Part shown: in pieces, positions 11,498 through 16,367 of the stretch
Numbering within the stretch: the first letter of the stretch is position 1
How the letters are laid out: every line of letters begins with the position of its first letter
Assembly: GCF_000024405.1 (NCBI RefSeq)
Contig: NC_013517.1
Span: forward strand, 3,069,989 to 3,133,988
DNA: 64,000 nt
DNA from: Sebaldella termitidis ATCC 33386
GTDB lineage: Bacteria > Fusobacteriota > Fusobacteriia > Fusobacteriales > Leptotrichiaceae
Direction of reading: 5' to 3'
Program-made: the position numbers and the translations under genes
Notes under the pieces: model-generated
Told to the model about the DNA's origin: nothing
The model's input: the letters and a program-made list of their open reading frames with translations, nothing else
Database searches by the model: none

Positions 11498-12277
11498 CTA
11501 TATTATTTTAAATACTTGATTTTCTTTTGCCTGAATTATTTTCCCGTTAAAAAATTCTTCCAGATCTTTTTTTATCAGTTCAGAAAAAATGTTTTCACTC
11601 TCATAATGACCTATATCTATTAATGTAAGCCCCGCTTCCAAAGCATCCAGTGTTTCATGGTGCTTCAGATCCCCGGTTATATATAAATCTACAGTATTAT
11701 CTATTTCCGGGATCATAGAACCGCCGGCTCCGGTTAGTACTGCTATTCTTTTTACTCTTTTATTTTCATTACCCGCTATTCTTATATTTTTCAAATTTAA
11801 TTTTTCTTTCACTGCTTTGCTTATATTATAAACATTATCCTCTTTTTTAAGCTCCAGAATACGACCCAGTCCGCTTTCAGGATCGCTTTCATTTTTCAGC
11901 CACACACTTTTTTTCCCGCCTAATGATAGCTTTTCCAATATATAATCACTCAGACCATGAGCAGCAGAATCCGCATTTGTATGAATACTATACACTGCTA
12001 TTTTGTTTTCTGCAAGCTTCAAAATTTTCTCTCCCAGCACTGTATCATTTGTTATCCTTTTTATTTCAGAAAATATCAGCGGGTGGTGTGAAATTATCAG
12101 CTCTGCTCTAGCAGCAATAGCTTGTTCTATTACATCATCAGTAATATCAAGACATATTATTACAGCTGAAACATTACTTCCTTTTCTTCCAATTATGAGT
12201 CCCGAATTGTCCCATTTTTCAGCAAGCTCCGGATTATATTTTTTCTCCAGAAAATTCATTATATCTTCAAGTTTCAT
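11498..12277 (-). CDS. Nif3-like dinuclear metal centre protein (YqfO)
   Basis: The 259-residue protein belongs to the NIF3/DUF34 family. Metal-binding signs are ISHHPLIF (about residues 63-70), HTNADSAAHG (about 97-106) and a C-terminal GHYESE motif. An NSGL motif occurs near the N-terminus (KWDNSGLIIG). It lacks the extra middle PII-like domain of Bacillus YqfO, matching the short form. The exact reaction is unknown; some members are called GTP cyclohydrolase type 2. Location downstream of rpoD is conserved in many bacteria. Confidence 0.85.
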   Translation of the reverse strand: MKLEDIMNFLEKKYNPELAEKWDNSGLIIGRKGSNVSAVIICLDITDDVIEQAIAARAELIISHHPLIFSEIKRITNDTVLGEKILKLAENKIAVYSIHTNADSAAHGLSDYILEKLSLGGKKSVWLKNESDPESGLGRILELKKEDNVYNISKAVKEKLNLKNIRIAGNENKRVKRIAVLTGAGGSMIPEIDNTVDLYITGDLKHHETLDALEAGLTLIDIGHYESENIFSELIKKDLEEFFNGKIIQAKENQVFKII

Positions 12278-12290
12278 AATATCCTCCCTT

Positions 12291-13220
12291 TTAATTCAGA
12301 TATTCCATATTTTCCTCCATTTGCTCTTTATTCAGATTAAAAGCAAGCTTTGTAAGGGCCTTTTCTCTAAGAACATTTATATTGCTTTCCTCTATATTCA
12401 ATATTTTTGATATTTCCTTTGTTTTATAGAATTTATCATCTAAACCATAATGCATCATTAGAATTCTCTCATCCAGATAATTTAATTTTTTAGGAATATT
12501 GCTTAATACATATTTTCTTGTCAAATGCGATACTTTTTCCACTATACTGTATGAATTTTCAGGCATATCATCCATTTTGGTAAATAATTCCTGAAGAGCA
12601 TTTAAATAATTCAGCTCTATATTCATTTGCTTTGATATTTCTTCCAGACTCAGACCGTTATTCAGCTCCAGCTGTACTTTCAAATACAGAATATACGCCA
12701 GCTCTGATGCTTTAAAATCTTTTAATATTTTTTTCTGATATTCCAGAATATATTTTATTGCAAAATTTTTCAGCCAAAACTCAATATCGCTTTCTGAATT
12801 TTTCAGTTTTTCAATTCCGTTTATTACCCCTATTGTTGCCTCCTGTACCAGATCAAGAAATGAAAATCCCAGTTTTACATACTGAAGACTTTCACGAATC
12901 ACTATTTTCAAGTGTTTATTTACAAGCTGATCTCTGTCAGTTTCATCAATTTCTCTTATTTTCAATTGCTTTATATTATGCTCCTTTATATCATCTAAGT
13001 ATAGTTCTATTGTTTCTTTTTCTGATATATCTGCATTTTCTTCGTCTATTACCACAAAATCATTATTTTCAATAGAAACTCTAACTTCAGGAATATTTTC
13101 GGTATATAAAAAGTTTACAATGGCGCCAAACTCTTCGTCAGAAAGATCATACTCCTGAAAAAGCTCTTCCATATTATAATTTTCATTGTTTCGTATTGTC
13201 TCCATTATGCTCTTTAACAT
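12291..13220 (-). CDS. degenerate sigma-70 paralogue next to rpoD
   Basis: The 309-residue protein is collinear with RpoD: a 1.2-like IELYLDDIKEHNIKQL (71-86), region 2.1-2.2 with LDLVQEATIGVINGIEKL (122-139), a region 3-like helical part, and region 4 (LDERILMMHYGLDD 249-262, then a helix-turn-helix to about 294). The core-binding 2.2 part is well kept. The 2.3-2.4 segment, [13 protein letters not shown] in RpoD, is replaced by EFWLKNFAIKYILE, and the recognition helix RERIRQIE is replaced by ESNINVLR. It likely binds core polymerase but not a normal promoter. It has its own extended -10 promoter and reads on into nif3. Confidence 0.75.
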   Translation of the reverse strand: MLKSIMETIRNNENYNMEELFQEYDLSDEEFGAIVNFLYTENIPEVRVSIENNDFVVIDEENADISEKETIELYLDDIKEHNIKQLKIREIDETDRDQLVNKHLKIVIRESLQYVKLGFSFLDLVQEATIGVINGIEKLKNSESDIEFWLKNFAIKYILEYQKKILKDFKASELAYILYLKVQLELNNGLSLEEISKQMNIELNYLNALQELFTKMDDMPENSYSIVEKVSHLTRKYVLSNIPKKLNYLDERILMMHYGLDDKFYKTKEISKILNIEESNINVLREKALTKLAFNLNKEQMEENMEYLN

Positions 13221-13253: not shown

Positions 13254-13262
13254 ATTATAACA
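13254..13262 (-). promoter_or_regulatory. extended -10 promoter of the sigma paralogue
   Basis: On the minus strand TATAAT (13254-13259) is preceded by TGT, forming an extended -10. No good -35 is visible. It lies 34 bases before the start codon and after the rpoD terminator, so the paralogue can be transcribed separately from rpoD. Confidence 0.5.
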
Positions 13263-13322: not shown

Positions 13323-13356
13323 AAAAAAGCTAATTTCATATAAATTGAAATCAGCT
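13323..13356 (-). terminator. rpoD terminator
   Basis: An 11-bp stem (AGCTGATTTCA with TGAAATTAGCT, one G-T) and a 6-base loop are followed by TTTTTT. The rpoD stop codon (13351-13353) lies inside the first arm. Confidence 0.8.
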
Positions 13357-14514
13357 CCTGTAATCTTCTAATTTTTTTCTTCTGCTCGGATGTCTCAGCT
13401 TTCTTAATGCTTTTACTTCAATCTGTCTGATTCTCTCTCTTGTGACATTGAATATTTTCCCTACTTCTTCAAGAGTCTTAGGAGAACCGTCATCCAGACC
13501 ATATCTGTACCTTAAAACCATTTCTTCACGTTCACTCAGTGTTTTTAATACTCCGTCTAATTGTTCCTTCAGTAATACCCTAGTTGTAGCATCATAAGGA
13601 TTTAAAAATTTATCATCTTCTACAAAATCCCCAAGCTCACTGTCTTCTTCGCTTCCTACCGGTGTTTCCAGTGAAATAGGATCCTGATTCATTTCAAGTA
13701 TACTCTTTACTTTATCCACAGGTATTTCCAGTTTTTTTGCTAATTCTTCCGCTGTAGCTTCTTTCCCTGTTTCCTGAAGTATTATTCTGCTTTCTTTTTT
13801 GATTTTATTTATTGTTTCTATCATATGAACCGGAATTCTTATAGTTCTTCCCTGATCAGCAATTGCTCTTGTAATAGCCTGTCTTATCCACCATGTGGCA
13901 TATGTAGAAAACTTAAATCCTTTTTCATACTCAAATTTTTCTACAGCCTTCATTAAGCCCATATTGCCTTCCTGGATCAAATCAAGCATTTTAAGACCTC
14001 TGTTTGTATGCTTTTTTGCTATACTTACTACTAATCTTAGATTAGATTCTATAAGCTTCTGCTTTGCCTCTTCATCATTTTCCAAAACTTTCTGTGCAAG
14101 GGCAATTTCCTCCTCATATGTCAAAAGCGGTATCTGCCCGATCTCTCTCAGATACATCTTTATTGGTTCATCTACATCCATTATTTCGGCTAATTTTATT
14201 AGATCAGTGTGGAGTAACTCATTTACTTCAGTTTCATCAATTTCTTCCTCATTGAACTCTTCTTCTTCTATTTCAGGAATTTTCGCAGATTTTTTTGTCG
14301 AATTGCTTTCCATATAGTCTTTTTTCTCAACAAGTGTATCAACTATACTGATTCCCTTATCCTCTATTCCACGAATTAACTGATCTATTTTTTCTACTGG
14401 AAAATCCTCCGGAATAACTCCGTTTATTTCCTCATAGCTTATTACACCGTCTTCTTTAGCCTGTTTTACAAGCTCTAGCAATTTATCTTTTAAATTCATA
14501 TTTTTTTCAGGCAT
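13351..14514 (-). CDS. rpoD: primary sigma factor RpoD
   Basis: The 387-residue protein is a compact group 1 sigma: a short region 1.1, region 1.2 ([14 protein letters not shown]), region 2 with [17 protein letters not shown] and [12 protein letters not shown], region 3 ([14 protein letters not shown]) and region 4 ([15 protein letters not shown], then [17 protein letters not shown]). It directs core polymerase to TTGACA/TATAAT promoters, many of which are visible in this window. ATG 14514 is chosen because GAGGAG lies 9 bases upstream, while the ATG at 14535 has no ribosome site. The start overlaps the dnaG stop by 8 bases (ATGCCTGA), so the two are coupled. Confidence 0.97.
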
Positions 14515-16282
14515 GATCTGATTCTCCTCGGACATAAAGTTTAAATTTATTATATAATTCCTTGATCTCTTGCAAACTGTGAATATTTTTTAATTCATGC
14601 TCTATCTGTTTCATATAGAAATAATTTTGGCCTTTTTTATGTATCTCTTTTTCCAGCTCTCTGTTAAACCAATCTGTATACAATATTTTATAGTATTCAT
14701 CTTCTTTCTCTATTTCCAGATCTGCTTCTCTTGAAAATTTAAAAATTAATTTTTTTTCTTCTTCGTCTATCTCTGAATTATCTAATATTTTTGTATTAAA
14801 GTCAATTTTTTTTAATTTTTTTAAAATTTCGATTATTATAAAACTTTTTATCTCTTTCTCTGCAAACTCCTTATAATACTCAGGATACTTTAAAATTAAC
14901 TTTAAAGTAGATACTTCCAGCAAATCATAATTCAATTTATTTTTTATCGAAATTTCCTCTTTTTTAAATTCTTTAGTTTTTGTTTTTTTATATTTCCCTG
15001 TATTGCTTTTTAGGATTTCTGCCTCTAAATTTTGTTTGCTTATCCCTAATTCTTCACTTAACTTATCCAGATAAATATCGATTTCAATACGATTTTGAAG
15101 ATTTGCAAAAAATTCTTTGAATCTGTCTATGAATATTTTTTTTCCTTCTACTGTTTTTATATCAATATCATAAGAAAATTCCGAAAACATATATTCAAAT
15201 ATGTCCACAGATTCTTTTAGCAGTTCTACAAACTTTTTCTTGTCATTTGATTGAAAAAATTCATCAGGATCCTTTATTCCTTTTGGGAAAAAAAGGCACT
15301 TAACATTAAATTCGTGTTTCTTCAGAATATAAGAAGCTCTGAATAATGCATTTTTACCAGCTTCATCATTGTCATAAGATATGACAATATTATTTGTGTA
15401 TCTTTTTAGCAACTTTGCCTGTTCGTCTGTAAATGCGGTACCTAACGATGCTACTGCATTTTCAAAATCATTTTTATGTGCGGAAAGTACATCCATATAA
15501 CCTTCCATCAATATTACAAAGCCTTTTTTTCTGATTTTTTCCCCTCTGCTTACCAGACCGTAAACTTCACGGCTTTTATTAAATACTTTTGATTCCTGTG
15601 AATTTATGTACTTAGCAGTACTTTCACCATCAAGGGCTCTGCCGCCAAAGCCTACTATATTCTGATTTTTATTATAGATTGGAAATATAATCCTGTCACG
15701 AAATACATCAAAAAAATTTCCTGTGCTCGCTCTTTTTATCAAACCTAATTCTATCAGGTCTTCATTAGAATAGTCTTTATTTTTGAAATTTTCCAGAAGA
15801 CTATCCCAGTTTTCAGGTGCATACCCAAGTTTAAATCTTTTGATATCGTTTTCGTTCAAGCCTCTTTTTTCCAAATAATTTAAGGCCTTCTTATTTTTAA
15901 AGATATTTTCTGAATAAAATTCCAGCGCTGTTTGTAATATCATATGAAATTTTTGCAGTGAATTCTGCTTATTACTGCTTTTTCCCGAAAATCTGCTGTT
16001 GAACTGAATATTATATTTATTAGCCAATTCTTCCACAGCTTCCGCAAAAGTTAAATTATTTATTTTCATATAAAATGTTATTACATCTCCGCCTATACCC
16101 GAACTGAAATCTTTAAAAATATTTTTTCCGGGACTTACTGTAAATGAAGGTGTTCTTTCTGGTTTAAATGGAGATAATCCTTTATAATTTGCTCCTGATT
16201 TTTTCAGAGTCACATATTCGCTTATTACCTGTACAATATCCAGCTTATTTATAAATTCTTGTATTTCATTATCCTCATACAT
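14507..16282 (-). CDS. dnaG: DNA primase with zinc ligands replaced
   Basis: The 591-residue protein has the DnaG layout: N-terminal zinc-binding-type domain (1-100), RNA polymerase/TOPRIM domain ([10 protein letters not shown] with the catalytic Glu, then [11 protein letters not shown] with the DxD acids) and a helical C-terminal helicase-binding domain. The usual CHCC ligands are all changed with spacing intact: S37, K40, D58 and S61 in [13 protein letters not shown] and [14 protein letters not shown] 16282 is chosen; a TTG at 16294 lies in its own ribosome site (TTGGAGA). It makes RNA primers for replication and precedes rpoD as in many bacteria. Confidence 0.95.
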
Positions 16283-16367
16283 AATTTTCTCCAATTATTT
16301 ATCCATCTATACAATTATATTTTATATTTTTAAATAGTCAAGTCTATTTTTAAAATTATTTTACAAT

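Follow-up and report, generated by a model that had tools for sequence, protein, structure and literature searches.

A sigma-70 paralogue beside rpoD in Fusobacteriales with a kept polymerase-docking helix and altered promoter-contact regions: a possible core polymerase-binding regulator

Bacterial RNA polymerase reads promoters through its sigma subunits, and divided or reduced sigma functions occur in the split sigma SigO-RsoA of Bacillus and in T4 gp33/gp55. Here we describe a sigma-70 paralogue, termed SIG, encoded beside rpoD in a 64,000-nucleotide stretch of the Sebaldella termitidis ATCC 33386 genome (NC_013517.1, positions 3,069,989 to 3,133,988; hereafter the window, whose numbering is used throughout). 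Unlike SigO-RsoA and T4 gp33/gp55, SIG combines region 2 with region 4 in a single polypeptide. It shares with group 1/2 sigma-70 factors (RpoD/SigA, RpoS) the collinear arrangement of 1.2, 2 and 4 regions, together with a putative 1.1-like part, but differs from them in that the window's family has lost or altered the -10 and -35 contacts, the proline turn and the finger linker. The fold of NusG/RfaH is unrelated to that of SIG. Sigma2.2 is the main sigma docking helix on the beta-prime coiled coil, or clamp helices (PMC4598750), a site that is common to sigma and NusG paralogues and that serves NusG/RfaH as the same dock as is proposed here for SIG (PMC6391919); moreover, sigma70 is able to load in trans onto elongation complexes (PMC4604602). 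PhyR of Alphaproteobacteria likewise has a sigma-like fold that does not serve promoter reading (PMC4598750), but it is ECF-like (extracytoplasmic function type), contains a receiver domain and binds NepR, whereas the closest relatives of SIG are primary-type sigmas and Pfam shows no receiver domain, either in the window protein or in the families listed for A1. The Caulobacter gene transfer agent has GafZ, a sigma-like helix-turn-helix factor acting on polymerase as an anti-terminator; in contrast to SIG, its helix-turn-helix is reported to be consistent with DNA binding and a promoter element is needed (PMC11150451). No described case of an order-wide cellular sigma with lost promoter surfaces and a kept dock was found in the open-access literature searched.

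We lean slightly towards SIG being a former alternative sigma that now acts as a core RNA polymerase-binding regulator without ordinary promoter reading. The gene is a full-length open reading frame with an intact frame, exactly as originally predicted in coordinates, strand and length, and its product is collinear with the adjoining RpoD (23% identity over 247 residues, E=3e-12). It comprises the following features.

12291..13220, minus strand: SIG, sigma-70 paralogue, 309 residues (open reading frame, Pfam/NCBIfam, RpoD alignment, AlphaFold2)
12798..12860, minus strand: helix of residues 121-141 with region 2.2 (LDLVQEATIGVINGIEKL); clamp-helix docking residues L402, D403, Q406 and E407 kept (E. 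coli numbering)
12660..12785, minus strand: residues 146-187, a continuous predicted helix that takes the place of region 2.3-2.4, the proline turn and region 3.0 and lacks the promoter contacts
12342..12425, minus strand: residues 266-293, region 4.2 helix-turn-helix, which keeps its fold but has EESNINVL in place of RERIRQIE
13041..13220, minus strand: N-terminal three-helix part, approximately residues 1-60, collinear with sigma region 1.1 (hhalign, AlphaFold2)

The predicted docking surface is preserved across the orthologues. As had been claimed, region 2.2 is kept, and LDLVQEATIGVI of SIG aligns with the corresponding RpoD segment. Among 68 orthologues from five clades, Q406, which contributes to the beta-prime clamp-helix dock, is invariant, while D403 and E407 are either retained or exchanged between D and E; in Leptotrichiaceae, L402, D403 and E407 are each present in 20 of 20 sequences. 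RpoD-like core contacts reach 75% in Leptotrichiaceae SIG, against 0% for the -10 and 2% for the -35 contacts (permutation p 0.0001), and 64% in Fusobacteriaceae SIG, against 20% and 12%, respectively (permutation p 0.0046). The -35 values refer to the helix residues R584, E585, R586, R588 and Q589.

The promoter-facing regions are reorganized. Alignment with RpoD bears out the claimed replacement of both the -10 segment and the recognition helix. Specifically, none of the 20 Leptotrichiaceae sequences is RpoD-like at the -10 residues Y430, W433, W434, Q437 and T440, although the W434 count depends on the alignment and rises to 3/20 in another one. In two AlphaFold2 models, of the window SIG and of a Fusobacteriaceae orthologue, regions 2.4 and 3.0 merge into one long helix, and no intact region 2.4/4.2 shifted elsewhere is seen in the alignments or in either model. 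The proline between regions 2.4 and 3.0 (P453), present in 69/69 RpoD and 11/11 basal SIG sequences, is missing from all 53 of Leptotrichiaceae (0/20), genus g6 and Fusobacteriaceae. Additionally, the linker from region 2.4 to region 4 shortens from 100 residues in RpoD and 95 in basal SIG to 77 in Leptotrichiaceae, 75 in g6 and 62 in Fusobacteriaceae, with loss of the sigma-finger (region 3.2) segment. The finger motif LGDF was found in 0/20 Leptotrichiaceae sequences; this exact count was used because a finger regular expression gave false matches (IDF) in Fusobacteriaceae. In Fusobacteriaceae SIG, regions 2.3 and 2.4 are the loosest segments (30-37% identity versus 59% for region 2.2), and the 4.2 helix-turn-helix carries a charge of -3.2 versus +4.4 in RpoD. 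The prediction that promoter contacts are lost is too strong for the -35 helix of Leptotrichiaceae, which is altered yet conserved and basic. As a separate observation, region 3 is replaced in some Fusobacteriaceae SIG (L046, L047, L052, L076, L081, L041) by a His/Asp/Glu-rich linker, with up to 16 His and Cys residues in L052; such linkers may possibly bind metal.

Functional alternative sigmas also diverge from RpoD, and the same measures were therefore applied to a sigma of about 275 residues from the same genomes. This protein retains 100% of the -35 and 63-69% of the -10 contacts, keeps both W433 and W434, and replaces Q406 by serine (ISEGN) in all but one sequence. The reverse pattern argues that the SIG pattern is no general by-product of divergence, and generic alternative-sigma divergence was rejected as its cause. 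The ~275-residue sigma (L140-L176, L115-L121) occurs in reduced genomes as well, with its promoter helices almost unchanged.

Membership of SIG in the sigma-70 family is supported by several comparisons. The protein passes Pfam Sigma70_r2 (PF04542; 27.6 bits, cut-off 24) and NCBIfam sigma70-ECF TIGR02937 (49.6 bits, cut-off 42.9), and a profile built from 35 orthologues finds SigA/RpoD as the best solved relatives (E 2e-40). Region 4 falls just under the curated Pfam cut-offs (PF04545, 21.2 versus 24.1; PF08281, 21.8 versus 25.7), despite which a region 4 fold is predicted in the model. AlphaFold2 yields a sigma fold with a predicted local distance difference test score of 85.7 and a predicted template modelling (TM) score of 0.84. 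Sigma factors are the nearest solved structures to this model in a fold search, whose TM-scores are low (about 0.2-0.37) and were used for family identity alone; the low values probably arise because the SIG domains are placed differently from the extended holoenzyme state. The region 1.1 match to RpoD is weak when made directly (hhalign E=0.058) and is bridged by the basal orthologues (Leptotrichiaceae to basal, E 1.6e-4; basal to RpoD, E 1.7e-5).

In the window, the gene order is dnaG-rpoD-SIG-nif3, and all four genes are encoded by the minus strand.

14507..16294, minus strand: dnaG primase, named by sequence and place beside rpoD; its translation served as the dnaG reference for locus comparisons
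13351..14535, minus strand: rpoD, primary sigma, 394 residues (open reading frame, Pfam, NCBIfam)
11498..12277, minus strand: nif3, DUF34/NIF3 gene (locus comparisons across genomes)

A profile search of 98 Fusobacteriota genomes combined with locus inspection places SIG between rpoD and nif3 in most Leptotrichiaceae, most Fusobacteriaceae and family f3, and nif3 is its 3' neighbour in most genomes with a readable neighbour. In the sole f2 genome SIG lies beside nif3, with no rpoD in the short segment that was read. Genera g6 and g27 retain the pairing of SIG with nif3, but their rpoD is located elsewhere or is missing from this locus; in g27 a serine dehydratase gene takes its upstream position. 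No SIG accompanies rpoD in the two outlying families of the class (G060, G097), and the gene is absent in the small-genome Leptotrichiaceae G006, G007, G010, G015 and G016 and in G071. In G029 (L138 1152-4030) an insertion interrupts it about 57 codons into the frame and brings a 417-residue gene that by eye resembles TnpB/IS605 OrfB, a sigma-like part of 253 residues remaining open; in G046 (L139) an in-frame TGA lies inside the match and the longest open frame has 232 residues, possibly reflecting a later start or a broken gene. A pattern search beyond the phylum returned three loci, all Fusobacteriota, although this weak search does not prove absence elsewhere. Based on locus numbers and a sigma-factor annotation, FN1317 is probably the F. 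nucleatum orthologue, adjoining FN1318, which we take to be rpoD. FN1317 is among the significantly different proteins of a proteomics study, where it is described only as a sigma factor (PMC4234264); no functional study of FN1317 or of sigma-like decoys was found in the open-access literature searched.

The gene is maintained, as indicated by ratios of non-synonymous to synonymous substitution (dN/dS) of 0.03-0.13 in 14 close pairs, usually below nif3 of the same pair and mostly above rpoD. Orthologues at the same locus across Fusobacteriales show the degraded pattern under purifying selection, in agreement with what had been anticipated. Eleven basal or early-branching orthologues (f2, f3, g20, g23-g26) still have STYATWW-type motifs, the proline and an unshortened linker, with Q437 and T440 already altered, which implies that the ancestral protein resembled a functional alternative sigma and that erosion occurred at least twice. 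On a tree of RpoD and Nif3, with which the long-branched SIG tree broadly agrees, the kept state is basal and lies on several branches, requiring a minimum of two changes. Promoter-contact erosion took place at least two times, in Leptotrichiaceae and in crown Fusobacteriaceae, and the partly eroded g27 may represent a third loss.

As to mechanism, conservation suggests that region 2.2 of SIG would dock on the beta-prime clamp helices, while its region 4 fold may contact the flap. SIG would thereby share or contest a site at which RpoD, alternative sigmas and NusG also bind, and would either lower sigma occupancy as a decoy or travel with elongating polymerase. We favour competition for the clamp helices, be it on free core or on elongation complexes. 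From sequence we infer core binding, loss of transcription activity and a possible decoy or anti-sigma role. For the wider proposal, that a duplicated sigma gave rise to an order-wide regulator class which kept the dock, discarded promoter reading at least twice and competes with sigma and NusG rather than serving as an initiation factor, we put the chances at about even.

Several observations weigh against a regulator without ordinary promoter reading. M413 and N409 of SIG show some variation, the contrast between core and DNA contacts is not significant in g27, and the absence or breakage of the gene in some genomes means that it is not essential everywhere. Within Leptotrichiaceae, conservation of regions 2.4, 3.0 and 4.2 equals that of region 2.2 (79-87% versus 79%), and the 4.2 helix-turn-helix is still basic (+3.1). 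Since these 2.4-3.0 and 4.2 helices are replaced yet conserved, they may have gained a new contact to DNA or protein, and the 4.2 helix could by the same token belong to a sigma for an unusual promoter. Large differences from RpoD at DNA contacts also occur in sigmas that are functional, above all in those of the ECF type. Furthermore, the contacts were defined by general residue lists in E. coli numbering, and the control consists of one alternative sigma only.

Alternatively, SIG may continue to initiate transcription as a sigma for a divergent class of promoters, perhaps with an activator supplying the -35 or -10 contacts; we regard this as unlikely, least so in the window's own family, but worth serious attention. 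The STYATWW-type motifs, proline turn and full-length linker of the basal orthologues agree with it, as do the score above the family-level sigma cut-off (TIGR02937) and the conserved substituted helices of Leptotrichiaceae, in whose basic 4.2 helix-turn-helix N586 and K593 are each found in 20/20 sequences. Against it, the DNA-facing segments of Fusobacteriaceae vary more than region 2.2 and their 4.2 helix-turn-helix is acidic, both lineages lack the finger linker and the domain turn, and the ~275-residue alternative sigma of the same genomes has the opposite pattern. SIG could instead be a sigma mimic that titrates an anti-sigma or other sigma-binding protein and so frees a real sigma, in the manner of PhyR and NepR. 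DNA contacts would then be dispensable, and some anti-sigma factors do block region 2.2, PhyR being such a mimic (PMC4598750); nevertheless, Pfam scans reveal no receiver or other switch domain, no anti-sigma gene is recognised beside SIG in the examined loci, where rpoD and nif3 are the neighbours, and the genome holds three sigma70 region-2 genes above the cut-off, SIG included, leaving few clients for a mimic, so that we consider this role improbable. That SIG is a decaying, functionless remnant would suit its absences, the split copy of G029 and the in-frame stop of G046, but is extremely improbable given open frames in nearly all other genomes, the low dN/dS, conserved synteny, the invariant Q406 and the reported probable F. 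nucleatum orthologue FN1317 (PMC4234264); a pseudogene was ruled out by dN/dS and open frames.

Two candidate expression signals lie at the 5' side of SIG.

13254..13262, minus strand: candidate extended -10 element (TGTTATAAT) for SIG, its form shared by three species of the genus
13325..13359, minus strand: hairpin with a T-run overlapping the rpoD stop (-14.1 kcal/mol, z=-3.7)

A promoter consensus scan at the SIG start gave nothing above chance, after which within-genus conservation was used. Three species of the window's genus have the extended -10 (TGnTATAAT) conserved upstream of SIG, which makes a promoter of its own, as originally predicted, plausible although the scan was empty. The hairpin between rpoD and SIG is a probable terminator or attenuator, and similar hairpins are found 3' of rpoD in many relatives. 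Those between rpoD and SIG (L004-L006, L034-L047) recur across the order, often with complementary GGGGG/CCCCC or AGGAGC/GCTCCT arms.

The basal intermediates provide a natural series from a sigma to a possible polymerase-binding regulator. Were SIG active in Fusobacterium, this medically relevant organism would possess a global regulator of transcription that is so far unstudied.
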